Part shown: positions 3,323 through 23,199 of the stretch, piece after piece | Position numbering within the stretch: the stretch's first letter is position 1 | Layout of the letters: every line of letters begins with the position of its first letter | Source of the DNA: Chloroflexota bacterium | GTDB lineage: Bacteria > Chloroflexota > UBA11872 | Direction: 5' to 3' | Length of the DNA: 52,595 nt | Assembly (NCBI GenBank): GCA_022820025.1 | Contig: JAJEGF010000046.1 | Span: 1 to 52,595 of the forward strand | Notes under the pieces: model-generated | The model's database searches: none | Seen by the model: only the letters and a program-made list of their open reading frames with translations | What the model was told of the DNA's origin: nothing | Program-made: the position numbers and the translations under genes

Positions 3323-4903
3323 TCAATCAGACTCTTTACCGAATTCAACGAGCACATTCGGGACTATCTCAAGCTTGCTGGAATCGAGATCGCTTACAGA
3401 TAATAGATAGTCAATAAAAGGCTCACTACTCCACTGAACTCGGAAAATCTGCTTTTCAATTCCAGATATACTGTCCTCGGAGTAAGTTCCTGCCTGGTAT
3501 TCCGACTCTCGCTTGTCATTTAAATAAATAGCTAACCTCGATCCCCACTCGATCCCTTTTCCTAATTCGAAGTCGTTTCCGGCCATACGCAAAATGCTAT
3601 TGATTGCTTTATGAAACGTCTCTCCTTTGAAACGGACTCTCGATTCCACTTTCAGTGCAAGGTCTTTTGGAGACATTCCGATTGTCTTCTGCAGGTCATC
3701 TGCCCACGTCACTGCCACCTCGACTAGCTCGTCAATGGTAAATAGTCCTCGCTCGATTTCTGGTGCATGTAAAACAAACGGAAGACTGATTAAGCCTTGG
3801 TTTACTAAGTCTTCAATTCTATTGCGAGCACGTGTTGACCAGTCAAAAGTGACAGTGACAAAGCACTGCGATTCTTTAGCAGACTGAAGACTGGCGTTGA
3901 CGGCGGACAGTTTCTTCTGGATAGCACCGTCTCCTCCAAAATTCTGAATAGATACAAAGCTCTCCAAGCCCCATCCACATCGACTCGCATACTCCCTTAT
4001 GAAACCCTCCTCCGTCTGACCCTCAACCAACCACACTACTCTGAAAGCAGGGTCAAGGCCGTGCTGACGAACCACAGCTCGAAGAAACTCGGGATCTCCA
4101 AATCTGGGCTGGCTGCCGTAGCGGTTTTCAACCCACACCGATGCTGGGTGGCCACGGGGATCCCACTCTTTCCTTATGGACGCATTAGAAATGTCTTCAA
4201 TGAATAGACGTATAAGCTCCGCAATCTCGTAGAGATCATAGGCTAGTCGTAGTTTCCCTCTGAATTGGCCTCGCTGATTGAAGGGCATAGATCGGAGGAG
4301 AACGTAAAGGTTTGGATCAGGATCAGTGTCATATGCGTGGAACAGAAGCGCGTCTCTCCACTTCAAAAGTTGCTCCAGCTTAATGTCGTGCTCGTCTAAC
4401 CAAGTCTTGGGATCGTTGGCCATTTTCCATTCGTTCCATTCGGCAAGATGGCAATTCGTGAGTGTGACTTTACCTGGACGTGGACCTCGGACGCTTGGTA
4501 AGTAGTATGATTCAATCCAAAAGAGCAAGGGAAGAAGGTGTGTGTTGAAATTCTTACAAAATTCGCTCGACTTGAAGGCATTCATTCCCTCCATACAATG
4601 CGGCCAGTTCAGTGCGCCTAGTCTCTGGAGCCTCGGCTTGTCATCTCCGACTGAACCGTATGCTGATGTTAGATTGAGAGTTAAGTGGCCTAGGTACTTG
4701 CTTATTGGCCAAATCTGGAATGAGTGGTAGTACTCTGGGTACTGAGTGATTGGCTTGATTACCTCGTCTGCGACCAGATTGCGAACCCCTTTGGGCATAA
4801 TTCGCAGGCCTCGGTCACGAAGAAAGCTGGAAAATGATGTCTCGGTTCGGAGCGTGCGCTGGGGAAACGGACATTGGTCAACGGCGCGCTCAAGAAGGTT
4901 CAT
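3323..4903 (-). CDS. Uncharacterised protein with TOPRIM-like core
   Basis: A 526-residue protein, stop TGA at 3323-3325. The first 290 residues match nothing I recognise. From residue 288 there is a TOPRIM-like pattern: strand VVWLVEGQTEE (catalytic-type Glu at 294 within VEGQTEE 293-299), then a FGGDGAI loop near 322-328, then the hydrophobic strand CFVTVTFDW at 347-355 with Asp354, and an EIERGLFT segment near 382-389 that recalls the ELE/DIE motif after TOPRIM in OLD-type nucleases and DUF4435-like proteins. TOPRIM domains bind Mg2+ and act in DNA nicking, joining or primer synthesis. No ATPase is fused or adjacent on this strand. The gene is lower in GC than its right-hand neighbours, like the STAND gene it faces, and sits in a defence-gene context. 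A defence role is inference; the TOPRIM call is moderate. Confidence 0.55.
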   Translation of the reverse strand: MNLLERAVDQCPFPQRTLRTETSFSSFLRDRGLRIMPKGVRNLVADEVIKPITQYPEYYHSFQIWPISKYLGHLTLNLTSAYGSVGDDKPRLQRLGALNWPHCMEGMNAFKSSEFCKNFNTHLLPLLFWIESYYLPSVRGPRPGKVTLTNCHLAEWNEWKMANDPKTWLDEHDIKLEQLLKWRDALLFHAYDTDPDPNLYVLLRSMPFNQRGQFRGKLRLAYDLYEIAELIRLFIEDISNASIRKEWDPRGHPASVWVENRYGSQPRFGDPEFLRAVVRQHGLDPAFRVVWLVEGQTEEGFIREYASRCGWGLESFVSIQNFGGDGAIQKKLSAVNASLQSAKESQCFVTVTFDWSTRARNRIEDLVNQGLISLPFVLHAPEIERGLFTIDELVEVAVTWADDLQKTIGMSPKDLALKVESRVRFKGETFHKAINSILRMAGNDFELGKGIEWGSRLAIYLNDKRESEYQAGTYSEDSISGIEKQIFRVQWSSEPFIDYLLSVSDLDSSKLEIVPNVLVEFGKESD

Positions 4904-5548: not shown

Positions 5549-6244
5549 GTGAACCCGGAAGCGGTGGCCGAAGGTCTACGGGCTCAGTGGGGTCTTGGCG
5601 TGGAACCGTGTCCGCCACTTGTCCCGCCGCTGGAAGCTCACGGAGTGAGAGTCTTTTCTTTGGCTAGGCTCGCCAACCAGTGGGTCGGGCTGGATGGGCT
5701 GTCGTTCTGGCATGGGATTACGCCCATTGTGTTGGTCGACACGGCCATGCCCACGTCACGGCTCCGCATGTCACTGGCCCATGAACTGGGTCACTTGGTT
5801 CTCCACAAAGCTCACGGATTGGCCGACCGCCGGGTGAGCGAGCACGAGGCTGCAAAGTTCGCGGCGGCTTTCTTGTTACCCAGTGACAGCCTGTCGACCT
5901 GCGGCATCCGCACGTACAACGTAGACGCCCTCGTGCAACTAAGGGCTGTGTGGGGCGCATCCGTGGCGGCCCTGGCCCGGCGGCTGTACGAGGTCAGAAT
6001 GTTGTCCGAGTGGAACTACCGACAGGTCTTTATTCAACTCAGCATTTTGGGCTGGCGAAAGGGCGAGCCGGAGGATACCGAGCGCCCGCTACCCAGTGAG
6101 ATGTCGGTCCTGCTCCGCAAAGTCTTCACGACCTTACGGACTGAAGGTACGACCCACCCGGCCGTGGCCGAAGCTCTCAATCTGAATATCGACGACCTCG
6201 ACGCCCTGCTGGTCGGATTGTTACCCACGGCCGTTTCAGTCTAG
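5549..6244 (+). CDS. ImmA/IrrE family metallo-endopeptidase (truncated, lacks N-terminal XRE domain)
   Basis: A 231-residue protein from GTG 5549. It begins with NPEAVAEGLRAQWGLG and LEAHGVRVFSL, the standard opening of the peptidase part of this family, and carries the zinc motif HELGH at 78-82 followed by EHEAAKFAAAFLLP at 99-111, whose Glu is the probable third ligand. Such proteases cleave a partner repressor or regulator, as ImmA does to ImmR in ICEBs1 and IrrE does to DdrO. Here the usual N-terminal XRE domain is missing and an in-frame TAG separates the protein from its old linker (see 5471-5545). The catalytic core is complete, so the shortened protein may still be made from GTG 5549, although no good ribosome-binding site precedes it. 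No repressor gene lies next to it. Intact function is uncertain. Confidence 0.75.
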   Translation: MNPEAVAEGLRAQWGLGVEPCPPLVPPLEAHGVRVFSLARLANQWVGLDGLSFWHGITPIVLVDTAMPTSRLRMSLAHELGHLVLHKAHGLADRRVSEHEAAKFAAAFLLPSDSLSTCGIRTYNVDALVQLRAVWGASVAALARRLYEVRMLSEWNYRQVFIQLSILGWRKGEPEDTERPLPSEMSVLLRKVFTTLRTEGTTHPAVAEALNLNIDDLDALLVGLLPTAVSV

Positions 6245-6762: not shown

Positions 6763-6808
6763 CAACTATCAGGCTGCGTGCGGCCCCCGTACACCTGGTG
6801 TACAGGGC

Positions 6809-7129
6809 CTATGGCTTGAGCAAGTCCAGTTTGCTCAGGCGATCCAAGGCCTGCCGGTGGCGCTGCTGGGCTTCGAGGTCCTCGACTAGTTCGGCCAGTT
6901 GGGAGTCCAGGTCACCCACAATGCGGCCGCTAGGGGCATTGAGCTTCTGGTGTTTGAGTGCGGCCACGAGTTCGTCCTGGCCGCTGGGTTTGCCCAGCAA
7001 TTTGCGGATTTCGGCCAGCCTGTCGATGGTCCGGCCTATTTCCGCGGTCAAGCGTTTGGCCCGGTCGCGGGCCTCGGCGTGCTCGCGAACGTGGCAGCCA
7101 ATTTGCGCGTCATTGGGCTCTGGGATCAT
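6809..7129 (-). CDS. Small coiled-coil protein, third gene of a minus-strand set
   Basis: A 106-residue protein whose ATG (7129-7127) overlaps the TGA of the preceding gene (7128-7126) in an ATGA arrangement, the usual sign of translational coupling. The sequence is hydrophilic and mostly helical with heptad-like spacing (AKRLTAEIGRTIDRLAEIRKLL, then LDSQLAELVEDLEAQQRHRQALDRL), so a two-segment coiled coil is likely. A longer reading frame extends upstream to 7207, but the coupled ATG fits better. No family is recognised; the association with the two upstream small genes suggests a shared function. Confidence 0.5.
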   Translation of the reverse strand: MIPEPNDAQIGCHVREHAEARDRAKRLTAEIGRTIDRLAEIRKLLGKPSGQDELVAALKHQKLNAPSGRIVGDLDSQLAELVEDLEAQQRHRQALDRLSKLDLLKP

Positions 7130-7344
7130 GCCCCAAAGCCCTTTACCACGACTTCGCGGTCGGGTTGGGACTTCACCTGCTCCCGCAAGCCGTCGAGCTC
7201 CGCCCACATAGCATCGAGCTCGTCACGCAGGGCCGGATCGGGAGCCGGTGGTGCGGGCAACACAACCTCCATGTAAATGGATCTGTGCGCAGCTGCATAC
7301 TGCGCCTCCACGGAGGTCTGGTGCACCCACAGGCGGTCGAGCAC
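7126..7344 (-). CDS. Small protein, second gene of a minus-strand set (or 3' half of a split gene)
   Basis: A 72-residue protein from GTG 7344, ending in the ATGA overlap with the next gene. The middle is proline-rich (LPAPPAPDPALRDELD) and the rest helical. The upstream gene ends with TGA at 7353-7351, only two codons before this GTG and in the same reading frame. The two may therefore be one protein interrupted by a nonsense codon, or two genes with a very short spacer. No family is recognised. Confidence 0.45.
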   Translation of the reverse strand: MLDRLWVHQTSVEAQYAAAHRSIYMEVVLPAPPAPDPALRDELDAMWAELDGLREQVKSQPDREVVVKGFGA

Positions 7345-7350
7345 CCCGAC

Positions 7351-7656
7351 TCAAGCCCCAACGGTTGCCACGGAGCCCTTATTGAGCGCGGCCACGGCCT
7401 GCGTGGCGCCACTCAGGTGGGCCAGCCCGGAAAGGCTGTTGATGCGGTCCGCGGCTGCCGTGACGGCGCCCAGTTGGGAAAATGCGCGGTCCAAGTTGGG
7501 TATCTGCCAGTTCCATTCGGCAGTCAGCCTAATAGGGAGGTCCAAGGCAGGTAAGTTGGCTAGCCTAGGGGCCATGATGCGGGCGTTCAGGTTTTCAAAG
7601 GCGCGGTCGAGGGCGGTGCAGTCGTGCCATATTTCGCGTCTCCTTGTCAACGGCAC
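7351..7656 (-). CDS. Small protein, first gene of a minus-strand set
   Basis: A 101-residue reading frame from GTG 7656. An AAGGAG lies inside its first codons, 9 bases before an out-of-frame ATG at about 7635, so the true start may be different or the 5' end may be frameshifted. The body (LDRAFENLNARIMAPRLANLP, then IPNLDRAFSQLGAVTAAADRI) is helical with two similar LDRAF-L segments, suggesting a small internal duplication. It reads directly into the next gene apart from one TGA. Function unknown. Confidence 0.4.
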   Translation of the reverse strand: MPLTRRREIWHDCTALDRAFENLNARIMAPRLANLPALDLPIRLTAEWNWQIPNLDRAFSQLGAVTAAADRINSLSGLAHLSGATQAVAALNKGSVATVGA

Positions 7657-8063
7657 CCGTGCTTGCGGAAGGATGCATTTATGTCATGTGATTCTATCAG
7701 GCGCGCCGACCCAAGCCCTTGCTGTGTGCCACACCCACTGTGACAGGCTGGCAGCCGTCCCAAGCGACTTCCGGGGGAGTGGTCACGAGTGTGCGCAGCC
7801 CCTGCAGGCTCGGACCGACCGTATGCTGGCAATCCGTAATCTCAGATGGACTCACTACCCTTGACTCTAGCAATCGTGACTCCGCCGTTCACGACTGAAA
7901 AGACTCTTAGATAGTCGACCCGGGCTCGCTGCGTATTCGACCGGTTGCGCGAGCAATCTCCGTCGGCACGAAGATAATTTCAATCTCCCTTCGGTCAGGC
8001 CGGTTGGGAGCAGATCGCCAAGGACTGGCGTGCCACAAGCTATTGGCGGCGCACAGAAGAACT
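7657..8063. other. Intergenic region upstream of the small minus-strand genes
   Basis: About 400 bases separate the end of the methylase-ParB-nuclease operon from the start of the small-gene set, both on the minus strand. It must hold the promoter of the latter if the set has its own. I see no convincing gene in either strand. Confidence 0.4.
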
Positions 8064-8993
8064 TCACGAGAGTTTGGCCGTCGCAGCTGCGGCGGCTGTC
8101 CAACTCCTCACTCGGCACAGTACGCCATCGTCGACATTAGCGCAGTAATCGACGATCCTGCATCTATCGAATAACAGACCTGCATCAATAGAGATTTCTG
8201 TTCTATCCTCTACGGATAGAGTCAGAGACTCGGCAACAAAGAACATTCGTACGGGAAGAACGACTAGAGGACCACTCATCCACTTGTTGCGGAACGAGTC
8301 TGGTTGAAGCTGGGCAACTGAATCCCGATAGCTGGTTCCCGTCTTGCATTGGCCGAATCCGATGAGCTTGCCGGGCAGGCCATCCGAAAAGGGCTTCCAT
8401 ACCACCACGTCCAATTTGCCATCGCCGGCTCTTCTTCCCCTCGAGCCGCCGTTTTGTACAAACCCACCCCCTTCTTGGAGCTGGAGGCAAAGGTGATCGA
8501 CCTTGTCTCGAAAGTTGGTATCGCCTGGCCTTGCGCCAAACACGAGACTCTCAGCGCGCTCACCGAAGTACTCCTTCGCGACCCCAGCGGCCAACTCTTC
8601 GAATAGCTGAGTTCCGTCGATACCCGCATGACAACGTTGACTCTGCATGTTGAGCCTGGTCGCTAGCAGCAGAAACTTGTATACAAGCTGGCTAGCGCTA
8701 AGGTCGTCTTCTACAGCCCGAAGGGTGAGCCCTTCGTCGCCAACCGCAAATGGATAGTGAACGCCGCACGCCTCCTGGCGGCGCCCGATCTCCGAGTAGG
8801 CCTCGTCGATGATCATATCTGTCACGTCTTCTTCCGGCACTCCGTCGGCGTAGTCGTTCTCCTCCAGCCTTCCGAGAATGCGAGAAAGGGCTGTTGCCGA
8901 CGTGAACCTACGCTGCCAGCAGCTAAGTTCGGCAAAATCGGCAAGCTCATGTCTATGGGAATTGAATGAGGGGGTTTCTGGCCACTTGAACAT
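8064..8993 (-). CDS. PD-(D/E)XK nuclease-like protein, last gene of methylase-ParB-nuclease operon
   Basis: A 309-residue protein. A helix with Glu132/Glu133 (LFEELAAGVAKEYFG) is followed by GKLDVVVWKPF (Asp195) and the strand LIGFGQCKTG (Gln215-Cys-Lys217). The order Glu, Asp, Q-x-K is that of restriction-type PD-(D/E)XK nucleases. The first 120 residues are not recognisable and could recognise DNA or a partner. Its ATG (8993-8991) overlaps the TAA of the upstream ParB-like gene by one base (TAATG), so translation is coupled. With the adenine methylase two genes upstream, the natural reading is a restriction enzyme whose host protection comes from that methylase. No assay-based evidence is available; the nuclease call rests on motif spacing. 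Confidence 0.6.
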   Translation of the reverse strand: MFKWPETPSFNSHRHELADFAELSCWQRRFTSATALSRILGRLEENDYADGVPEEDVTDMIIDEAYSEIGRRQEACGVHYPFAVGDEGLTLRAVEDDLSASQLVYKFLLLATRLNMQSQRCHAGIDGTQLFEELAAGVAKEYFGERAESLVFGARPGDTNFRDKVDHLCLQLQEGGGFVQNGGSRGRRAGDGKLDVVVWKPFSDGLPGKLIGFGQCKTGTSYRDSVAQLQPDSFRNKWMSGPLVVLPVRMFFVAESLTLSVEDRTEISIDAGLLFDRCRIVDYCANVDDGVLCRVRSWTAAAAATAKLS

Positions 8994-10096
8994 TAGTTGC
9001 TTCCTGCCGTTCGCCGGCTCCTGCGACGACCGCGCCTTCGAAGCATCTGCTCGTAGAGATCGTCGGCAAGATCCGCCACGTCCTCCGCAACCGTCAGTAG
9101 TGACTCGGAACCGTCGTAGCCGGTGGACGACATGCTGTGAGCCTTCTCCAGATCTCTCTTGGCGGCGTGCAGCGACTCTTCGAACACAGCGGATGACGGC
9201 CGGCTAGTTTCAAATGCTTGGGCAAGTTCAGTTCCTGAACGAAGCGCAGCGACTGCCTCTCTGTTGCCCACAACCGAATCAAGCCGCCTGAGATCCGGGT
9301 TTTGGGAGTGAATGACCGGGGGCTTATCCTGCTTCTTGCTGCCGTACAGCCAGAGACAGAGTTCCTCTAGCTGCTTCTTGTTTTCCGCCGGCACCGGCTT
9401 TGGGTCTTCGTCCCCAGCCGGACTTAGACCGATATACTGGCTAATGCCAGGGTATTCCAGCCCCGTGTAGAGATGAGAAAATGAGAAATGGCGGCGATAG
9501 CGGTCTGCGCGGCTAAACACTTGCATCTCTTCAGCTTGCTCAATGACCATCATGCCGCGGAACAGTCTCTGTACTGTTCTGTGGGTGTCGCCAATCTGAC
9601 GCGCGATCTCATCAAGCGGTACACCGAATTCTCGGTGAACATTAGCAATATACTCAGACTTCGCGTAGCTACTCCACTTCGCTGGGCCATTCACATGCTT
9701 GAAGCCGATGTAACGCCATGCGTCCTTGCGTGTGCCGGCTATGGTTGGCAAGAACTTCAGTTTGTCTCGGGCTCTTTTGTCTATGGAGGGAATTGCATTC
9801 GTATGGGCCTGAACGGTCATTGGGTCCAACAGCGCCTTGACTGCCGCAAGCCTGCGATTTCCTTCGATGACAACGATTTTGCCATTCTCTGACGTAACTA
9901 TAAGGGGCTCATGCTGAAAGAAGCCGCTTGCGTGGATGGACAGCACCAATTCGTGCACGTCCATAGCCTCCCAGAGGATCTCAAGCACGTCCTTATCGGA
10001 CGCGGACTTTGGTAGGTCAAACTCGACGAGTCGCGGATTCTGGAGATCGAATGCCAACTCCGACACACTGATCATCTGTATGTTCCTAGAATCCAT
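8993..10096 (-). CDS. ParB/Srx-fold protein with helix-turn-helix
   Basis: A 367-residue protein between the methylase and the nuclease genes. Residues 10-95 show the ParB N-terminal fold: NPRL near 20-23, HEPLIVTSENGKIVVIEGNRRLAA around 62-85 with the conserved EGNRR at 78-82, which in chromosome-partition ParB proteins forms part of the nucleotide-binding box. A helix-turn-helix is likely at 156-181 (FGVPLDEIARQIGDTHRTV). The C-terminus ends in an arginine-rich tail (MLRRRGRRRSRR). There is no ParA nearby, and the gene is co-directional with a restriction-like pair (13-base gap before, one-base overlap after), so a partition role is unlikely. A DNA-loading, specificity or regulatory role in the restriction system is inferred. 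Similar ParB-domain proteins occur in phage and defence contexts. Confidence 0.7.
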   Translation of the reverse strand: MDSRNIQMISVSELAFDLQNPRLVEFDLPKSASDKDVLEILWEAMDVHELVLSIHASGFFQHEPLIVTSENGKIVVIEGNRRLAAVKALLDPMTVQAHTNAIPSIDKRARDKLKFLPTIAGTRKDAWRYIGFKHVNGPAKWSSYAKSEYIANVHREFGVPLDEIARQIGDTHRTVQRLFRGMMVIEQAEEMQVFSRADRYRRHFSFSHLYTGLEYPGISQYIGLSPAGDEDPKPVPAENKKQLEELCLWLYGSKKQDKPPVIHSQNPDLRRLDSVVGNREAVAALRSGTELAQAFETSRPSSAVFEESLHAAKRDLEKAHSMSSTGYDGSESLLTVAEDVADLADDLYEQMLRRRGRRRSRRTAGSN

Positions 10097-10109
10097 CGCA
10101 CTCTCCTTC

Positions 10110-11030
10110 CTATGCGAGAGCAGCAGCGCCGTCGCCTCGGTGACCGTTCGAGTCAGGAAACCGCACTTGTGATGGTACGATCAAGAGTTCACTGACCTGC
10201 CGCTTTCGATGGAGACTGTATTGGAGGACGTTGTCGGTGATATCACAGAATGTGTATAGGCTCCTAATGAACGGTGTGTCGTCGTAGGATGCTACCCACT
10301 TGAGAGCGCGCTCAGTCCTCAAATACTCGGCAAGTAGCGCATGCTCGTTGTCTCCATAAGAATTCAAGTAGAGGCGACTCCCCTTAGAGCAGTAAGGGGG
10401 GTCGAGATACACAAAGACTTTCTCAATAGAACAGTCTTTAGGAAGACATTCAACCAGAAATACTCTGGCATCCTTTCCGGTGACATGAATCCGATCTCGC
10501 TTCGTTGCGAGCATCTCTATTCGCGCGACGAGCTGCTCTCGGTAGAACCGGGCATCAATCTTCCATTCTCCATCTTGTGCGTATCCACCTATGGGGGCAG
10601 CTCCGGTTATAACTCCAGACCTGTTGCACCTATTCATGTAGAAGGTGGCAAAACCGAGTTCGAACGGTCTAGTATCGTCGGCTCGGCGACAGATTTCGCT
10701 TTGCCTGCGCCACTCCTCAACTGTCACTGGCACATTCATGATCGCTTCGGCAAATCGTTCCGTCTCGTTCAGCACCGCATTCCAGAAGGCGAAGATTCGT
10801 GCATCAAGGTCGTTTAGGTGCACGTCCGAGACGACACCCCTAAGCAAGAGGCGCAGGGCAGCACCAGCCCCGCCGGCAAACGGCTCGAAGTATGAGCAGC
10901 CGGAGAGGTCATTGGTCTCGATTGTACGACCCAGGAAGTCGGCAAGTGAGGCCTTGCCGCCTGGATAGCGGAGTGGGCTGACGTGCCTTGGCCCACGTTG
11001 GCTTTGTTGATTAGGTGAAGTGTCGCTCAC
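10110..11030 (-). CDS. DNA adenine methyltransferase (D12 class, Dam-like)
   Basis: A 306-residue protein with all landmarks of the alpha-group N6-adenine methyltransferases: motif X LRYPGGK at 20-26, motif I YFEPFAGGAGAAL at 47-59 for S-adenosylmethionine binding, NDLD at 73-76, and the catalytic DPPY at 210-213, followed by SRLYLNSY. Length and order match Dam/DpnM enzymes, which methylate adenine in short duplex targets; the target cannot be read from the sequence. It is the first gene of a three-gene minus-strand operon with the ParB-like gene (13 bases downstream) and the nuclease gene. Its role is probably to protect host DNA. Being first in the operon, it would be made before the nuclease. 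Confidence 0.85.
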   Translation of the reverse strand: MSDTSPNQQSQRGPRHVSPLRYPGGKASLADFLGRTIETNDLSGCSYFEPFAGGAGAALRLLLRGVVSDVHLNDLDARIFAFWNAVLNETERFAEAIMNVPVTVEEWRRQSEICRRADDTRPFELGFATFYMNRCNRSGVITGAAPIGGYAQDGEWKIDARFYREQLVARIEMLATKRDRIHVTGKDARVFLVECLPKDCSIEKVFVYLDPPYCSKGSRLYLNSYGDNEHALLAEYLRTERALKWVASYDDTPFIRSLYTFCDITDNVLQYSLHRKRQVSELLIVPSQVRFPDSNGHRGDGAAALA

Positions 11031-14075: not shown

Positions 14076-16295
14076 TTGTCACGTGCAGGGCGTACGGTCT
14101 GGATCCTGAGGATGGCTGACGGGGAGCGCTCAGTACCAATCCCGATGAGGTCTGAGGCGATGCGCAGCTTGCTCGTCGGGATAGAGGCGCGACGTACGGC
14201 GGTGCTTGGGTTTGCCTTGCTCGTGGTTCTAGTGGCGTTGATGGGGTGCGAAGCAGATATCTACGGCGGCGACCTGGAGGTTGATGGGTTACCGCCGTCG
14301 CGGTCTGGCTCAATCGACAGTCGTGCGCCATCGAGGCCTCGATCAACCGGCAGTGCTGCCGCGCCTACGTCCTCTGCAGCCAGTGATAGATCGGTGCAGA
14401 CGCCACCATGCCTTTCGGGTGAGCGAGCGCCGGGGGCTCTGCAGTGGACGGCGGGCGGAGGCCGCGATACCGGCGCGGATGGACAGCCAGCCGCGATGCT
14501 GGCCGTCGCCGAGTCCGTGGTCTATCGCGTGGCGGCGGATCGGTCACGGCTGGACGTAATCGCCGAGACGCCCGGCGTGACGACGGTGGCCGGCTCGCCC
14601 GGCGGGACCCGGGTCGCCTTTGCGGTGTGTCTGGGGCGGCCTGACGTGAGACAAGCCGCCGGCCGAGACGCGCCCGCGGTCCGCACCTATGCGGCTGGTC
14701 AGGTACGTATCACCGGGGAGGACGTGTACGAGATTCGGTCGTGGAATTCCCGGACAGGAGCGACGCGACCGCTGGCGGCGGGGCGGGCGCCGGCCTGGTC
14801 GCCCGATGGTGCGCGGCTGGCGTTTCTGTCCGGGTACGACTATGGCCTGGCGATTGCGGAACGCCCTGGGGGACAACGCTTATACGTCATGCCGGCCGAG
14901 GGTGGTCGGCCCCGTGAAGTGGCGCGGTCGGTCGTTGGTGCTGTGACGTGGTCGCCGGACGGCCAGCGCCTCGGATTTCTGGTCGGCCGCTGGTGGGGTC
15001 CCGCTGATGAACCGGGTCCGGCGCTCCATTTCGCGGGTGAGGACGGGACGGTGCAACAGCGGCTGGCAACGGATGTCGTCAGTCCGCCGGCCTGGTCGCC
15101 CGACGGCCGCCGGCTTGCCTATGCCCGCGACGAGGGCGACACCCTCGCGCTGTACACCGTCGGCGTGAATGGCAGCAAAGCGCAGCGGGTGACCACGATT
15201 CAAGGATGGCAACGCAGTCCGACGCGAGGCTGGATTCCGAGCGTGGCATGGTCGCCGGATGGGGCGTATCTGCTCTACAGCTGCGGGGTGCAGGTGTGCG
15301 TGGTCGCCCTCGACGGGACGCCCGTGGGGAGATCGCCCGTGGGTGCGACTCTCGGCGCCTGGTCGCCGGATGGGTCGCGCGTGGCGGTCGCCTCAGCGAG
15401 CAGGGCGATCCCGGCGGGCCGGCATTCGGTCGTCCTCGCCAGCATGACGCCCGACGGGGGCGACGTGCAGCCGCTCGTGCGTCAAGCGTGGAACGCGCCT
15501 GGGCGGGGGGTGGCTCTCTGGCCTGGCGGGATTCCACCAACGCCGGCCCCGGTCTACAACTGTGCGAATGGCCAGGTGGTGCCGGAGCCGGGCAAGAATC
15601 CCGGCCTGGTGCACGACTGCTGGGCGATGGTGGAAGCGCTGGATGCCCTGGGAGCTGACGCCCTGCAAGGGAAGTGGTCCCCGTCGAGCCCGATCGGACA
15701 GTGGGAAGGCGTCGGCGTCAGCGGAACGCCGCCACGTGTCCGGTCGCTAAATCTGAGCGGGCAGAATTTCCGGGGGGAGCGGATTCCGGCCGCGCTTTTC
15801 CGCCTCGACGCCCTGGAGCGGCTGAATCTGAGCCGGACTCACGTGGTTGGCCATTTGCCGGCGGCGCTCGGCGACCTCACCGCGTTGCGCGTGTTGGACC
15901 TAAGCCAGACGGAAATCTCGGGCCCCATTCCCCCAGACCTGGGACGTCTGACGCGGCTCACGCACCTGGTGCTGCGCGATGACAGAGTTGCCACTGCCTT
16001 GCACGGGCCGCTGCCGCGCGAACTGGGCCAGCTGGTCGCTCTGGAGGTGCTGGACATCGCCGGGCATCAGCTGACGGGCGGCATCCCGCCCGAACTCGGC
16101 CAATTGGCCAACCTGCGAGTCCTGGATCTCTCGGGGAACCAGTTGAGCGGCGAGATCCCGGTCGAACTGGCCGAGCTCGACAACCTGCAGGGTTTGTTCC
16201 TGGGATCGAACCCGCAGACCGGCTGCATTCCGGCGGCATTGCGCAATGTCCCGGACAACGATCTGGACGCCCTTCCAACATGTGCAGCCTCCTGA
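14076..16295 (+). CDS. Lipoprotein with TolB-like propeller and leucine-rich repeats
   Basis: A 739-residue frame. The N-terminal hydrophobic segment (LGFALLVVLVALMGC) ends in a lipobox with Cys58; starts at ATG 14145 or 14160 would give a more normal 30-35-residue leader than ATG 14076. A low-complexity Ser/Ala/Pro stretch follows, then five WSPDG motifs at about 241, 292, 340, 392 and 429 that mark the blades of a TolB/WD40-like beta-propeller. From about 557 to 730 there are leucine-rich repeats of the GxIPxxLGxLxxLxxL type, known from plant receptors and from many environmental bacteria. The protein should be anchored on the outer face of the membrane and bind other proteins or ligands. 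Its last codons overlap the next gene by 16 bases. A second, longer paralogue lies downstream. Confidence 0.8.
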   Translation: MSRAGRTVWILRMADGERSVPIPMRSEAMRSLLVGIEARRTAVLGFALLVVLVALMGCEADIYGGDLEVDGLPPSRSGSIDSRAPSRPRSTGSAAAPTSSAASDRSVQTPPCLSGERAPGALQWTAGGGRDTGADGQPAAMLAVAESVVYRVAADRSRLDVIAETPGVTTVAGSPGGTRVAFAVCLGRPDVRQAAGRDAPAVRTYAAGQVRITGEDVYEIRSWNSRTGATRPLAAGRAPAWSPDGARLAFLSGYDYGLAIAERPGGQRLYVMPAEGGRPREVARSVVGAVTWSPDGQRLGFLVGRWWGPADEPGPALHFAGEDGTVQQRLATDVVSPPAWSPDGRRLAYARDEGDTLALYTVGVNGSKAQRVTTIQGWQRSPTRGWIPSVAWSPDGAYLLYSCGVQVCVVALDGTPVGRSPVGATLGAWSPDGSRVAVASASRAIPAGRHSVVLASMTPDGGDVQPLVRQAWNAPGRGVALWPGGIPPTPAPVYNCANGQVVPEPGKNPGLVHDCWAMVEALDALGADALQGKWSPSSPIGQWEGVGVSGTPPRVRSLNLSGQNFRGERIPAALFRLDALERLNLSRTHVVGHLPAALGDLTALRVLDLSQTEISGPIPPDLGRLTRLTHLVLRDDRVATALHGPLPRELGQLVALEVLDIAGHQLTGGIPPELGQLANLRVLDLSGNQLSGEIPVELAELDNLQGLFLGSNPQTGCIPAALRNVPDNDLDALPTCAAS

Positions 16296-16840
16296 CGCGG
16301 TCGGCGGCCAGTCCGCACCAACGCGCGGCCTCGCCTGCGTCGCGGCGACGGCCGGCTGGTGTGAATGGCGCAGCGCGCGGACGGCCTGTGGCCGCGGTAT
16401 TGCTCGCCCTGCTGCTGGTTGCCGGCGCTGGCTGCCTGACCAGCAATCAGTCCGACGCGGAAGTACCGGCACGCCAGACAGCACGCGCGGAGGTTCAGCC
16501 GGAGCTGTCGGCGATGGAGGCCCCGGCCGTTGTGGAGGACCACATCACGACCCGGACGCCTACGGTTGAAGCGCCCGCAGGGCCAGCAGTTTCGGCCCTC
16601 AGTCGCTCGCCCGAGACGGTGGAAGAGTTGCTGAAGAACGGGCTGCACCTTGCCGGCGCGTCGCCGGTGCACCTGGCGAGCCGGACCACGCTGGCGGCCA
16701 GCAGCGTGCGCTGGAATTCGCGAGGCATCGCGCGCCCGGCGGCACGGTCAGGACCCCAGGAGTCGATTCGAGCTTGCTCACGCTTCGTTGGACGTGCTGA
16801 CGGTGAATGCCATGGATGGCGCGAGGTAGGGCCGTCGTGA
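16280..16840 (+). CDS. Truncated lipoprotein, N-terminal leader and linker only
   Basis: A 186-residue frame that overlaps the genes on both sides: its ATG is 16 bases inside the end of the preceding gene, and its TGA (16838-16840) forms a GTGA overlap with the next start. The hydrophobic run AVLLALLLVAGAGC gives a lipobox at Cys52. The rest is a low-complexity Ala/Pro/Ser/Thr stretch like the linkers of its two neighbours, without WSPDG motifs or leucine-rich repeats. It looks like a paralogue of the flanking genes that lost its propeller and repeat domains, but the tight overlaps suggest it is still translated. Alternatively it serves only to couple translation of the two flanking genes. 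Confidence 0.5.
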   Translation: MCSLLTRSAASPHQRAASPASRRRPAGVNGAARGRPVAAVLLALLLVAGAGCLTSNQSDAEVPARQTARAEVQPELSAMEAPAVVEDHITTRTPTVEAPAGPAVSALSRSPETVEELLKNGLHLAGASPVHLASRTTLAASSVRWNSRGIARPAARSGPQESIRACSRFVGRADGECHGWREVGPS

Positions 16841-19287
16841 GGCACGAGTTCACGAGGCGGCAGCGGAACGGCGGTCCCCATCTCCGGGCGTCACTAGGGA
16901 TCTTGCTGCTCGTCTCCGTGCTTGGCGTCGCAGGGTGCGGGCAACCGGAGGCCTCCGGCGTCGCTGACAGCCCGTCGCCCGTGCCGCCGGCAACAGCCCC
17001 GGCTGATCCAAGACTGCAGGCCTCTGCTGCATCCCCCGTTCCACGCCCGTCCACCGAATCGGCGCCAGCGCGGCTCGAACCGCCACCGGCGGGTGGTGGC
17101 GCCGCAGTTCAGGCCCACGGGGCGTGGCCGTCCGCCTGTCTCGCGCCGAACTATCACCTGTACGGATTCCCAGGACTCGACCTTCTCTCCAAGCCGCGCG
17201 GCGTACAAACCGCGCTGCAGTGGAGCCCGGACGGGTCTAAAGTCCTGTTCGCCAGCGGCGCCGAGGTCTACGCCGCGGCGGCGGACGGAACTCGCGTGGA
17301 GCGGCCGATCGATGCGTCTGGCCCAATCTTCCTCCACCAGTCGCGCTATGTGACGCTACCGATCACCGAAATATCCGTGAGTCCCGATGGCGAGCGCATC
17401 GCCTATGCCGTCTGCCATGAGTATGCGCCGAACTGGACCAATCCAAGGGATCCTGACGTGGCGCGCTGCCGGCGTGGGGCGCACTTCGGCGCCGTAAATA
17501 CGGACGATGAACGCTCCTGTCACGAACTCCGCGAGGTGGTCCGTGATTATCCGGCGGGGCCGGTGCAACTGCCGCCTGGGGTGATGTTCCACGAAGTCTT
17601 GCTGTGGGATCGCGCCAGCCAGACGACGCTGCGGCTGGCCGGTGGGTACGCGCCGGCCTGGTCGCCCGACGGCACGCGCCTGGCGTTCCTGTCCCCGTAT
17701 AGCGACGCGTACGACCCGGACCGGAAGGTCGGATATCGCCGGCGGTTGCCAGGGCTGTACGTCATGTCGGCGGACACCTGGCAGCTGCAGTCGCGCGTGC
17801 GCGCGAACGTCGCCCGCCCGCCGCGCTGGTCGCCGGATGGGCGGCTCCTGGCGATCATCGAGGAGACGGGCGCCGAGGCCACGCTCTCCGTGGTGTCGGC
17901 CGACGGCAGGGGCCGGCGGCGGCTGTCGGAGACGCGCAGCGATCCCGCCTGGTCGCCGGACGGGTCGCGGATCGCGTTCGTGCGAGACGCAAGTGAAGAC
18001 TCTCTTGCTCTCTACACCATCTCGCCCGACGGGACGGACGAGCAGCGGATCACGACGATCGAGGGCTTACGACACTTTCGCGGCTGGTGGGACCAGTCCG
18101 TGGCGTGGTCGCCGGACGGCACGATGTTGCTGTACGGGTGTCCGACGATGTGTGTGGTCACGCTGGACGGGCAGCCCGTAGGGGAGCGCTCGCTCGCGGC
18201 CCGCCACGGCTACAGCGCCGCGTGGTCGCCGGACGGCACACGAATCGCGGTGCTCAGCCTTGCGCTGTCCGGGGACACCGGTCCCGGCGTTCTATTCACC
18301 GTGGCACCCGACGGCACCGACCCTCAGGTCCTGGTGGACCATGACGCCAAGCATGGCCTGCTGGGCGTTGGCGTTCAGGTCGAGTCCGCGACGGTGGATG
18401 TCGCCGGGTGCACGGCCGGGTCAGCCGTGCCGTCACCGGCGGCAAACGCGGGGCTGGTACGTGACTGCGAAGTGCTGCTGCGGGCCCGGCCAGTGCTCGC
18501 GGGGAGCGTGCCGGGGGCACTGAACTGGAGTCCCGAACTGCCGATCACGGAGTGGGCCGGCGTGGTGGTGGACGGGGCGCCCCTACGGGTGCTGGGGCTG
18601 TCGATCAATTGGTATGGGCCAAACGGCCGGGTTCCCCCGGAGCTGGGTGGGCTGACGCAGCTGCGCGACCTATGGCTGGGCGGGCTCCTGGGGGGTGAGC
18701 TCCCCCCCGAGTTGGGTGAACTGCGGAACCTCCGCGTGTTGGGACTGAACGCATCCTATTTTCACGGTCCCATCCCTCCCGAATTCGGTCGGCTGGCGCA
18801 ATTGGAAGAACTGTCGCTGTGGTACACGTTCCTGAGCGGGCCGATCCCACCTGAGTTGGGCGGGATGCGGCAGTTGCAATACCTGGGGCTTCGCCGTTCG
18901 TTCGTCTCCGGGCCGATCCCGCCGGAGCTGGGCCAGTTGGCGAGCCTGAAGGGCCTAGAACTCGGGGGCCACTGGTTGACGGGACCTATCCCGCCCGAGC
19001 TCGGGAGGTTGACGAAGCTGCGCACACTGATTCTGTCGCACAACCGGCTTACGGGCGCCATCCCGCCGGAGTTGGGCCAGATGACGCACCTCAACCGGCT
19101 TGATCTGCGGGGCAATCGGCTGACAGGCGCGATCCCAGCCGAGCTCTCCGCGCTGCCGGGCCTGGATGAATTGCACCTCGGGGACAACCAGCTGACTGGC
19201 TGTATCCCGCCAGGGCTGGCCGGCTGGCGACCCGCGCAAACGGACCTGGGTGACCTGAGCCTGCCGAGATGCGAGGCGGCGGCGTGA
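16837..19287 (+). CDS. Lipoprotein with TolB-like propeller and leucine-rich repeats (second copy)
   Basis: GTG 16837 is chosen because it forms a GTGA overlap with the preceding gene; an in-frame ATG lies at 16807. From the GTG the protein has 816 residues with a leader GILLLVSVLGVAGC and lipobox Cys34. A Pro/Ala-rich linker is followed by a propeller with WSPDG (or SPDG) motifs in at least seven places, and then by about eight leucine-rich repeats with the consensus GPIPPELGxLxxLxxLxL, more regular than in the first copy. The same overall plan and shared phrases such as the PAWSPDGTRLAFLS blade show a tandem duplication. Surface-exposed recognition of proteins or glycans is the likely role; no enzyme motif is present. 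Confidence 0.8.
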   Translation: MRHEFTRRQRNGGPHLRASLGILLLVSVLGVAGCGQPEASGVADSPSPVPPATAPADPRLQASAASPVPRPSTESAPARLEPPPAGGGAAVQAHGAWPSACLAPNYHLYGFPGLDLLSKPRGVQTALQWSPDGSKVLFASGAEVYAAAADGTRVERPIDASGPIFLHQSRYVTLPITEISVSPDGERIAYAVCHEYAPNWTNPRDPDVARCRRGAHFGAVNTDDERSCHELREVVRDYPAGPVQLPPGVMFHEVLLWDRASQTTLRLAGGYAPAWSPDGTRLAFLSPYSDAYDPDRKVGYRRRLPGLYVMSADTWQLQSRVRANVARPPRWSPDGRLLAIIEETGAEATLSVVSADGRGRRRLSETRSDPAWSPDGSRIAFVRDASEDSLALYTISPDGTDEQRITTIEGLRHFRGWWDQSVAWSPDGTMLLYGCPTMCVVTLDGQPVGERSLAARHGYSAAWSPDGTRIAVLSLALSGDTGPGVLFTVAPDGTDPQVLVDHDAKHGLLGVGVQVESATVDVAGCTAGSAVPSPAANAGLVRDCEVLLRARPVLAGSVPGALNWSPELPITEWAGVVVDGAPLRVLGLSINWYGPNGRVPPELGGLTQLRDLWLGGLLGGELPPELGELRNLRVLGLNASYFHGPIPPEFGRLAQLEELSLWYTFLSGPIPPELGGMRQLQYLGLRRSFVSGPIPPELGQLASLKGLELGGHWLTGPIPPELGRLTKLRTLILSHNRLTGAIPPELGQMTHLNRLDLRGNRLTGAIPAELSALPGLDELHLGDNQLTGCIPPGLAGWRPAQTDLGDLSLPRCEAAA

Positions 19288-21042: not shown

Positions 21043-23199
21043 ATGACTATGAACGACCGTCTTGAAAGCGATAGAAGGATTTTAACGGAAATCGTGGAAC
21101 CTAGTCTCGTCCCACACCAACCTATATTAGCGCTTGACCAAGATTATCTTGATCGCGGAGAGTTCGCATCAGAGTTAGCAAGACAGCTGAAGGGCTATCG
21201 AGACGACAATTGCCTGGTCGTAGCGTTCTACGCTCCTTGGGGAGCCGGGAAGTCCTCATTACTCAACCTGCTCGCCAACGAACTTACCAGAGATACTGAG
21301 TCTTTGGATACGTCGCCAGTCGTAATTAGGTTCAATCCCTGGAATTTCTCAAACTTGGACTCACTTCTCTCGATGTTATTTCGCGAGCTCCAAGCGGCTA
21401 TTGGACGCTCGGATCCTAAGTTGGCAAAGAATGTTCAAACGTCGCTTCAGCTATTATCTGTCCTATTGGCCGTAGGAGAGCTCTCCCCCGTGGCAGGCAC
21501 GCTTTTCGCACGCCTTTCACGACTGATTCGGCGAAGCGCTAAGATACTGGACGAGAAAGCGGAGTCCCTCATTGCGGTGAAGGAGCGTACCAATGAGGAG
21601 CTTCGAAAACTGGAACGTCGAATCTTCGTACTCATCGATGACATTGATAGGCTTGACCAAGAGTCCATGCGCTTTATGTTCCGGCTTATCCGACTGAACG
21701 CTGACTTTGACCGAATAACATATGTGCTTGCTTTCGATAGGGACATTGTCTCGAAAGTTCTTACTCAGGAACAGGGGATATCGGGCAGCGAGTACTTAGA
21801 GAAGATTGTCCAAGTCGGATTCGACATCCCGCCGGCTGAGATGCATAAACTTCAACGGCTCTTCGCACAATCAGTAGACAGGCTAGGACTTCTGACAGAC
21901 ACTGGTGAAGAGAACCTGATCCGCTGGGTCGATTTGAAAGCCGGAGGCATCGACAAGTTGATCAGTACACCGCGAGATATGGTCCGCTACGTTAACGGTC
22001 TTGCGGTCAACAATAGTATTGTGGCAGACGAAGTGAACCCCGTAGATCTTGCTGGAATTGAGGTCATTAGGACATTCGCACCAAAGCTCTACTCATTTAT
22101 CAGGGATAATCGAAGCATCATGATTGGACAAGCTGGAGGTTCTTGGCACAACGACAATCAGGCTACGAGAGAGCAGCATAGAAGCAGACTGGACGAAGCT
22201 TACTTGCTATGCAAGTCAGAGTTGCAGCCAGCCATCAAAGAAATATGCTCGCAGCTCTTCCCGGAGACCGTGACCCTATACGATGGCTCAACCTTTGGCA
22301 GTGGATACTACGACGCTTGGCGAAAGTCACGGAGAATCTGTACGACACACTATTTCACACGATACTTTTACCTTCGTCCGTCGGACAACGAAGTAAGTCA
22401 GGCCGAGTTTGACATGATTCTCGGCGATGCAGGTGACCATAGGAAGCTCGAATCTCGACTCAGAGAACTTATAGATACCGACAAGATGGACAACTTCGTT
22501 GGTCGTCTTTACGACTCTGCAGATGAGCTGCCCGACGAGCATATTGAGCCGACAGTCTTGGCTTTATTTGATGTAGGCGATAATCTAAAGGCTGGGCTGT
22601 GGCTCGAGAACCAGCTGTTGCAGGTTGCGAGTGTCGTTCATAGACTATTGGTTCGCCTACCGAAGCCAGCCCGTCGGCGTGTCCTCTCAGCTGTGGCAGA
22701 CGGAGCAGCCTCGTTAGGAGCAGTGGTCTATTTCGCTAGTTTGTATAGTGAGCACTCCGAAGAGAATAGACGACTCATGGAGCGTAAAGAATGGAACGAG
22801 ATTCGGGATAAGTTAGTCATCAGAGTTAGCGCTGCTGGCGAGGATATGACGCTTGCCCGATCGCCCCACTTGGGAATCCTACTTTATAGATGGAAGGATT
22901 GGGCACCAACGGAGGATAGTTCGAGATTCGTAAGGCGCCTAACAGAGGCAGATGATGGTGTCTTAGCGTTCTTGGAAGGCATGATCGCCCAGCAATCCAG
23001 TTCAGTTGGTAGATATGCTTCGCGACGAGGCTGGCATTTACCGATCGACAATGTTAAGGAGTTCATTGACCCGAAAATCTTGGAAAAATCTATTCAACGA
23101 ATCAAAAAGGAGCGCTGGGATGACTTAACTGATCTCCAACGTGAGGCGATAGATGCCTTTTTTGTTGCGCGAGAACCAAGGCGTGGAATGCCGAGCTAG
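21043..23199 (+). CDS. KAP family P-loop NTPase
   Basis: A 718-residue protein with Walker A APWGAGKSS at 64-72, the family-typical FNPWNF near 97-102, and a Walker B block FVLIDDIDRLD at 195-205, followed by YVLAFDRDIV. These are the defining features of KAP NTPases, named after Kidins220/ARMS and PifA. The usual transmembrane insertion between Walker A and B is represented only by a mildly hydrophobic stretch (LLSVLLAVGELSPVAGTLFARL, about 137-158). The C-terminal 400 residues are helical and unrecognised. KAP proteins such as PifA take part in phage exclusion. The gene is much lower in GC than its neighbours, stands alone between repeat R2 and the RecQ fusion, and is probably a recent arrival. 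ATG 21043 or 21049 could be the start; neither has a strong ribosome-binding site. Confidence 0.8.
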   Translation: MTMNDRLESDRRILTEIVEPSLVPHQPILALDQDYLDRGEFASELARQLKGYRDDNCLVVAFYAPWGAGKSSLLNLLANELTRDTESLDTSPVVIRFNPWNFSNLDSLLSMLFRELQAAIGRSDPKLAKNVQTSLQLLSVLLAVGELSPVAGTLFARLSRLIRRSAKILDEKAESLIAVKERTNEELRKLERRIFVLIDDIDRLDQESMRFMFRLIRLNADFDRITYVLAFDRDIVSKVLTQEQGISGSEYLEKIVQVGFDIPPAEMHKLQRLFAQSVDRLGLLTDTGEENLIRWVDLKAGGIDKLISTPRDMVRYVNGLAVNNSIVADEVNPVDLAGIEVIRTFAPKLYSFIRDNRSIMIGQAGGSWHNDNQATREQHRSRLDEAYLLCKSELQPAIKEICSQLFPETVTLYDGSTFGSGYYDAWRKSRRICTTHYFTRYFYLRPSDNEVSQAEFDMILGDAGDHRKLESRLRELIDTDKMDNFVGRLYDSADELPDEHIEPTVLALFDVGDNLKAGLWLENQLLQVASVVHRLLVRLPKPARRRVLSAVADGAASLGAVVYFASLYSEHSEENRRLMERKEWNEIRDKLVIRVSAAGEDMTLARSPHLGILLYRWKDWAPTEDSSRFVRRLTEADDGVLAFLEGMIAQQSSSVGRYASRRGWHLPIDNVKEFIDPKILEKSIQRIKKERWDDLTDLQREAIDAFFVAREPRRGMPS

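Follow-up and report, generated by a model that had tools for sequence, protein, structure and literature searches.

What does a ParB-fold protein do between an adenine methylase and a nuclease-like protein? The question is raised by three genes at positions 8064 to 11030 of a 52,595-nucleotide stretch of DNA from a Chloroflexota bacterium (GTDB lineage Bacteria; Chloroflexota; UBA11872; GenBank assembly GCA_022820025.1, contig JAJEGF010000046.1, positions 1 to 52,595 of the forward strand), which is referred to as the window. They lie head to tail on the minus strand in the order D12 adenine methylase, ParB-fold protein and a protein of 309 amino acids (aa), and in our judgement they probably encode a ParB-type, modification-gated restriction system composed of a methylase, a ParB recognition or loading subunit and a separate nuclease. 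The unit is real, widespread and mostly unannotated, and catalogues recognise it in part. Computation establishes the trio and how its members are linked; a ParB fold and, with less certainty, a PD-(D/E)XK fold; the retention of a single lysine in the nuclease; the co-divergence of ParB-fold protein and nuclease; and the exchange of the methylase. The features of the operon are the following (E, expectation value; pLDDT, predicted local distance difference test).

10110..11030, minus strand: D12-class N6-adenine DNA methyltransferase, 306 aa, GTG start, motifs YPGGK, FAGG and DPPY (Pfam PF02086, E 2.2e-17; PADLOC model PD-Lambda-5_B PDLC04018, E 4.3e-101 over residues 16-296 of 306)
8993..10096, minus strand: ParB-fold protein, 367 aa, with ParB/Srx N-domain, helix-turn-helix and a long helical C-terminal part (TIGR00180, E 2e-6, below cut-off; PDLC04017, E 5.6e-21, at residues 9-168 only; model pLDDT 93.3; Foldseek top match Noc 7nfu, E 8.5e-6)
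9851..9865, minus strand: EGNRR, ParB residues 78-82, which corresponds to the G-E-R-R box of ParB; 163 of 164 ParB proteins have it, partly by construction as the scan patterns included it
9686..9706, minus strand: GFKHVNG, ParB residues 131-137, its form G[FYLIVM][KR]H..G, also among the viral scan patterns, present in 159 of 164
9527..9616, minus strand: helix-turn-helix region of the ParB-fold protein, residues about 161-190 (model helices 161-168 and 172-190; alignment over N-domain and helix-turn-helix of Noc, KorB and ParB chains)
8064..8993, minus strand: PD-(D/E)XK nuclease-like protein, 309 aa, its start overlapping the ParB stop by one base (PHROGs families phrog_14650, E 1.3e-18, and phrog_3984, E 1e-10, both of unknown function; model pLDDT 92.9; nearest Foldseek match MspJI)
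8409..8411, minus strand: codon of D195, the catalytic aspartate candidate (D in 158 of 158 rows having that column)
8343..8351, minus strand: codons of Q215-C216-K217; by alignment, most relatives carry the lysine of K217 at the position of residue 225 instead

A first-pass annotation had described three co-directional genes at these places, with a 13-base gap and a TAATG overlap, and the open reading frames (ORFs) and junctions are exactly so. Read directly from the sequence, the 13-base gap between methylase and ParB gene goes with GGAAGGAGAG upstream of the ParB ATG, and the one-base overlap TAATG between ParB gene and third gene with AGGAAG upstream of it, so that genes two and three are both preceded by purine-rich, ribosome-binding-like stretches. 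The adenine methyltransferase named there is likewise recovered by the Pfam D12 family. In another genome of the same class (G160) the same trio stands in the same order, with identities of 54% for the nuclease, 65% for the ParB-fold protein and 59% for the methylase. Since the trio recurs there and the ParB-nuclease pair in 163 loci, the arrangement is more than chance.

Linkage of the ParB-fold and nuclease-like genes

Searches with the ParB-fold protein reached 10 of 301 genomes of the phylum (the window's own included), four plasmid records, 12 phage records, 480 places on genome contigs and 147 on viral contigs; from each of the last two sets the best 80 were kept, so that the sample consists of the loci closest to the ParB protein of the window. 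Altogether 175 loci were examined (80 genome, 80 viral and 15 others), 174 of them with a ParB ORF. The next gene on the same strand after ParB was a relative of the 309-aa protein in 163 loci (76 of 80 genome, 78 of 80 viral and nine of 15 others), and in 158 of these 163 pairs the nuclease gene lay no more than 150 bases away. The pairs comprise 156 distinct nuclease proteins, two loci (L046 and L059) being the same contig. Loci without the pair are L051 to L056, among them L053 to L055 as types of the anti-phage system PD-lambda-5 and L056 without ParB, the genome loci L069, L089, L105 and L119, and the viral loci L162 and L203, cut at the contig end.

The kept genome loci belong to 19 named phyla, with the pair in 18, and six of the 80 have no phylum; many are metagenome bins, some labels of which may be wrong. 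A ParB profile matched in 11 of the 301 genomes. The nuclease profile, built from ParB-linked members so that a ParB-free branch could be missed, matched in six, all with ParB adjoining (6/6; that of G021 is a fragment at a contig end). The expectation, raised from the window alone, that the two genes stay together across distant genomes is thus borne out in both surveys, and rare co-occurrence was not seen.

With its ParB fold and its occurrence in phages, viral contigs and plasmids, the unit might be thought a maintenance or partition module of mobile elements rather than a means of defence. This is scarcely credible: several loci are on records titled chromosome (L058, L064, L065 and others), the ParB gene is carried with a nuclease and a methylase, and, as a difference from ParABS partition, a Pfam scan of 25 ORFs of the window (other short ORFs being outside it) showed no ParA-type ATPase gene.

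Two of the loci without the pair carry other arrangements. At L051 (1230-8388) a ParB relative, for which no nuclease gene could be detected, has a C5 methylase, a GHKL-type ATPase and a Z1 protein in its vicinity and is possibly a third ParB-based variant, and at L052 (4574-9100) a 311-aa ParB-like protein is encoded between the genes of an SMC-like ATPase and a 304-aa Mrr_cat nuclease.

Predicted folds of the two proteins

To the Pfam family ParB_N the 367-aa protein shows a weak match (E 0.02, below the family cut-off). Its model, calculated from the window and 50 of 89 representatives, gave 24 chains of the PDB at E 1e-3 or better and probability 1.00 in Foldseek, all of them Noc, KorB or ParB/Spo0J. 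By this model, ParB N-domain and helix-turn-helix fold are present in the protein, in agreement with the first-pass annotation, which had seen a ParB-fold protein with EGNRR and a helix-turn-helix. The canonical ParB motif is EN-L-Q-R, a nucleotide motif, and its pattern EN[LIVM][QAN]R occurred in none of the 164 ParB proteins; GFKHVNG sits in what we take to be the region where canonical ParB carries it. With the CTPase clamps ParB, Noc and KorB the protein hence shares the N-domain and helix-turn-helix fold and the GxRR box, but differs from them in G(F/Y)(K/R)H..G instead of EN-L-Q-R and in its large helical C-terminal part. For the loading or spreading step with CTP that the first-pass annotation thought conceivable before cleavage, the absence of this motif is a reason for reserve, and such a step is at most a conjecture.

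The 309-aa protein remained without a match at E up to 1 in Pfam and up to 0.1 in PADLOC and NCBIfam, and among 62 family members there was no PADLOC match and in Pfam only single, chance-like ones (four unrelated families, each in one of the 62, E 0.038 or more). Used as sole query, it found no genome but its own among 24 of the order, and no plasmid, phage or genome contig; the family was reached only via the ParB searches. Profile searches of solved structures likewise returned chance-like matches only.

Its alignment is more telling (159 members including the window, five ORFs below 200 aa being excluded: L048, L067, L079, L121 and L122). Nearly invariant are D19, E22, R72, P81, D195 and R277, with Q215 retained in 156 of 158 rows. 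Residue 217 is K in 63, A in 62 and G in 29 members, residue 225 mostly K (95). Exactly one of these two positions holds a lysine in 154 of 158 nucleases, 61 at 217 and 93 at 225, with two having both, two neither and one further row lacking the region; the pattern holds in 97 of 101 at less than 60% identity and in 42 of 45 at less than 40%. In PD-(D/E)XK enzymes the lysine is known to move while D and Q remain. Because one lysine is kept, in either of two places, beside a fixed D and Q, the alignment argues that the nuclease site is under catalytic constraint. Many independent moves, as a Fisher p of 1e-37 for exclusive lysines might imply, were considered and rejected, with only one or two changes on the trees: two on the ParB tree and one on the nuclease tree (five if the four unassigned rows are counted as a class).

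The model of the protein (predicted template modelling score 0.92), for which the window and 61 of 92 representatives (145 usable) were taken, has a helix at 127-143, a strand at 148-151, a helix at 161-172, strands at 196-200 and 210-217, a helix at 231-238 and a strand at 248-253; D195 lies just ahead of strand 196-200, and strand 210-217 ends with Q215 and K217. Best in Foldseek were MspJI chains (E 2.0e-3 to 3.6e-2, probability 0.87-1.00, template modelling (TM) score about 0.3). In a viral library the best match was named 'restriction endonuclease' (E 1.0e-3), as were two more named ones (E 1.0e-2 and 1.8e-2). As no PDB match was below 1e-3, the call of a PD-(D/E)XK fold rests on motif, order of elements and these matches together. 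From these the 309-aa protein is read as a putatively active PD-(D/E)XK nuclease, less firmly than the ParB fold is assigned to its neighbour. D195 and QCK 215-217, which the first-pass annotation had picked out, are thus present within a conserved PD-(D/E)XK-like motif; its suggested structure prediction gave a model that fits this fold together with the motif, and a failure to adopt the fold was not seen.

MspJI is a methyl-dependent restriction enzyme. As the closest solved fold, it suggests a modification-dependent, type IV-like nuclease cutting foreign-marked DNA, with the methylase a mere neighbour. We hold this to be very improbable: methylases of three classes lie within 400 bases of 147 of the 163 pairs, and no SRA-like reader domain for modified bases was found in the Pfam scans of the 62 members. 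From the MspJI family the protein differs further in the low TM score, the lack of a sequence match and its partnership with a methylase.

Methylase exchange and the proposed system

The methylases within 400 bases of these 147 pairs are D12 in 85, C5 in 43 and N4/N6 in 19, classes that come from profiles grown from few seeds, with a Pfam check for nine. Four of the remaining pairs have a D12 methylase within 3 kb; 12 have none, six of these being truncated where the sequence ends. In a set of 96 representatives, the window among them (D12 54, C5 22, N4/N6 15, unassigned 5), the class changes at least eight times on the ParB tree and 11 times on the nuclease tree, both trees being of a quick kind with long branches. 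The methylase class has thus been exchanged repeatedly beside the ParB-nuclease pair. When L126 (D12) is compared with L112, L116 and L123 (N4/N6), where the methylase has the same position and strand, identity is 64-66% for ParB and 51-58% for the nuclease and only 22-23% for the methylase; the classes of L126 and L123 were confirmed by Pfam. As ParB proteins linked to C5 share no more than 32% identity with the others, the recent swaps seen are those between D12 and N4/N6. A segment of specificity that follows the swap was not seen at L126, where 31 of 229 conserved ParB and 32 of 172 nuclease positions are changed and scattered.

At L061 the D12 methylase (6782-7675), divergent from the ParB-nuclease pair, may have been swapped within its class: its likeness to the methylases of the closest relatives is only 27-30%, against 63-71% for the ParB-fold protein and 47-59% for the nuclease. 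Here too no segment following the swap was seen: the changed positions, 14 of 206 conserved in ParB and 17 of 144 in the nuclease, are scattered.

ParB-fold protein and nuclease diverge together. Computed on non-independent pairs, their distances correlate with r 0.967 in the D12 group (n=81) and 0.974 in the C5 group (n=43), and the correlations of ParB and nuclease with the methylase are lower (0.742 and 0.742 for D12; 0.524 and 0.538 for C5). These values also bear on a simpler explanation, namely an ordinary two-gene type II restriction-modification system in which the ParB-fold protein is only a transcriptional control protein, a repressor like KorB or Noc. It would fit with the HTH-like (helix-turn-helix) helices of the model, with KorB, a repressor, among the closest solved structures, and with the viral contigs, where the ParB-nuclease pair is convergent with the methylase in 39 C5 and 22 D12 cases of 78 pairs and the two are therefore probably transcribed apart. 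A regulator, however, need not track an enzyme as closely as the ParB protein does; a nuclease without ParB was not seen in the 301 genomes with the profile from ParB-linked members, and in PD-lambda-5 the ParB domain belongs to the only protein that is not a methylase. A mere control protein is therefore distinctly unlikely. With type II systems the operon has in common a methylase and a PD-(D/E)XK-like nuclease with D..(E/Q)xK (by alignment and model, with weak Foldseek matches); it differs in the third, ParB-fold gene that accompanies the nuclease and in the exchangeable methylase class.

The modification-gated restriction system that we favour would work as follows. The methylase would mark host DNA at its sites and protect it. 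The ParB-fold protein, with N-domain, helix-turn-helix and helical arm, would serve as the DNA-recognition or loading subunit and form a restriction complex with the 309-aa PD-(D/E)XK nuclease, which would cleave unmarked DNA, for example that of an incoming phage. We infer that a complex forms, that DNA is cut, that methylation protects and that phages are countered, as well as any clamp step driven by a nucleotide. A bolder version, which we put forward tentatively as possible and somewhat doubtful, would make this a separate type of restriction-modification: a ParB-fold clamp would replace the specificity or translocating subunit, load on unmarked DNA, perhaps with the help of a nucleotide, and pass it to the dedicated nuclease. 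Because such a clamp would read the absence of the mark and not the site of one enzyme, it could be combined with methylases of three chemistries.

Several points weigh against the favoured reading. First, no methylase was found within 3 kb in six uncut pairs (L044, L045, L050, L062, L080 and L085). Second, a swap of class beside a nearly constant ParB and nuclease would not easily be tolerated by a partner of the methylase that itself reads sequence, unless the sites are the same; if the swapped enzymes mark the same sites, the swaps are less remarkable. Third, in the N4/N6 group (n=17) ParB correlates with the methylase at 0.904 and with the nuclease at 0.886, and nuclease with methylase at 0.851. 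Fourth, no sequence profile connects the nuclease to a known nuclease, and its Foldseek result is weak, with no PDB match below 1e-3, TM about 0.3 and a second match, VC1899, at probability 0.41. Finally, the literature search found no experimental test of any member of the trio.

Kinship with PD-lambda-5, phage cassettes and neighbourhood

PD-lambda-5 was selected from E. coli strains, and with it all of the ten phages tested except one were altered in plating or plaque size; its authors, who used a host without mrr, say that it appears to be a highly compacted system of restriction-modification plus abortive infection (RM+Abi) (Vassallo et al., 2022; PMC9519451). Common to it and the operon are adjacent genes, the homologous D12 methylase and a homologous ParB N-domain (hhalign probability 99.1, E 8.2e-19, residues 5-151). 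Its A subunit is longer (437-494 aa in L053 to L055, with PADLOC models matching both halves), whereas in the ParB proteins of the window, G160 and G224 the match to PDLC04017 is confined to about positions 14-176 of its 473; full-length PD-Lambda-5_A occurs elsewhere, in G257 (PDLC03999 at 7-474 of 493) and in G076 and G292 (both halves of PDLC04017). It also consists of two genes without a separate nuclease, whereas here the gene of the 309-aa protein overlaps the ParB stop. PD-lambda-5_A as a fusion of ParB and the 309-aa nuclease was considered and rejected, since the nuclease profile matched its alignment with an hhalign probability of 0.2. Six proteins are the best foreign matches of the PD-Lambda-5_B profile (E below 1e-70): three (G257, G076 and G292) adjoin a protein matching both halves of PD-Lambda-5_A, two (G160 and G224) a ParB-nuclease pair whose ParB matches N-terminally only, and one (G131) a HerA-like protein without such a match. 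By these comparisons the operon shares two modules with the validated anti-phage system PD-lambda-5 and appears to carry a different effector; it is kin, not a member.

This tempers one claim of the first-pass annotation, which had presented the operon as a candidate undescribed defence system. No published description of the trio was found in a literature search of text passages (figures, supplements, most subscription papers and preprints being outside it), but PADLOC already recognises two of its three genes as kin of PD-Lambda-5, which makes the operon related to a known anti-phage system and not wholly undescribed.

The kinship also invites the idea of an abortive second-line sensor, in which ParB and nuclease stay silent as long as the methylase works and, once a phage blocks modification or restriction, attack DNA, even that of the host. 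In its favour are the RM+Abi label of PD-lambda-5 (PMC9519451), the exchangeable methylase class and the methylase-less pairs of L044 and L050, which sit like add-on modules. We nevertheless find it unlikely, as the C-terminal half of PD-lambda-5_A is missing in the window's ParB protein and the closest solved fold of the nuclease is a restriction enzyme. On a Neorhizobium plasmid the pair of L044 (110-8024), without a methylase of its own within 3 kb, lies 3' of genes for GmrSD_N, Z1 and DUF4420 (Pfam), with a C5 methylase annotated at the 5' end; that of L050 (1117-10030), also without its own within 3 kb, lies 5.5 kb 3' of a C5 methylase. Both look as if added to another restriction system. 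At L053 (75-9510) a PD-lambda-5 pair follows Z1, DUF4420 and AIPR genes and a gene resembling a C5 methylase by eye, and PD-lambda-5 may also attach to systems of the Z1 type.

In P2-like phages the same ParB and nuclease families stand beside a convergent C5 methylase instead of D12, as in gp98-gp96-mth of WPhi and like cassettes. The gp96 protein reads QCG with a later W..K, the lysine thus being at the 225-type place, and the WPhi genes are annotated only as gp98, gp96 and DNA cytosine methylase. In phage 12474III and an E. coli prophage the pair with its convergent methylase lies between portal and replication genes; in WPhi the pair is on the same side of the replication gene, at the record end. 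This P2 site is a hotspot known for defence genes (PMC9519451), and in the main text of a paper on P2/P4 hotspots (PMC9122126) the words 'ParB', 'methyltransferase', 'methylase' and 'WPhi' are absent. Of 5,426 complete E. coli genomes, 139 match the WPhi cassette, and in 103 of these the match covers at least 80%; among the matches listed, its genes are labelled ParB N-terminal domain protein, hypothetical protein and DNA cytosine methyltransferase.

In the window itself, the scans with Pfam and PADLOC support the defence setting that had been noticed from the neighbouring genes, with a weak match for the TOPRIM gene.

28-579: C-terminus of a type ISP protein
590-2851: nSTAND3 gene (Pfam/PADLOC scans)
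3323-4903: OLD-like TOPRIM gene, weak match below cut-off (Pfam/PADLOC scans)
5549-6244: M78/ImmA-like gene (RmrA models matched over the C-terminal part only, E 2e-65, profile 122-341 of 363)
21043-23199: KAP gene, PifA-like (Pfam/PADLOC scans)

Adjoining the KAP gene, a 1719-aa protein (23599-28758) combines DEAD/Helicase_C with a UvrD-type helicase, and two genes (14076-16295 and 16807-19287) encode a TolB-like beta-propeller joined with leucine-rich repeats.

Through this operon a family to which the libraries searched assign no function, and which follows ParB in 76 of the best 80 of 480 genome places and occurs in P2-like phages as well, gains a candidate role and is tied to the validated but unexplained PD-lambda-5. 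It poses the question to restriction biology how one ParB-nuclease pair serves methylases of three chemistries, and with WPhi gp98-gp96-mth a native E. coli version exists as a convenient test object.

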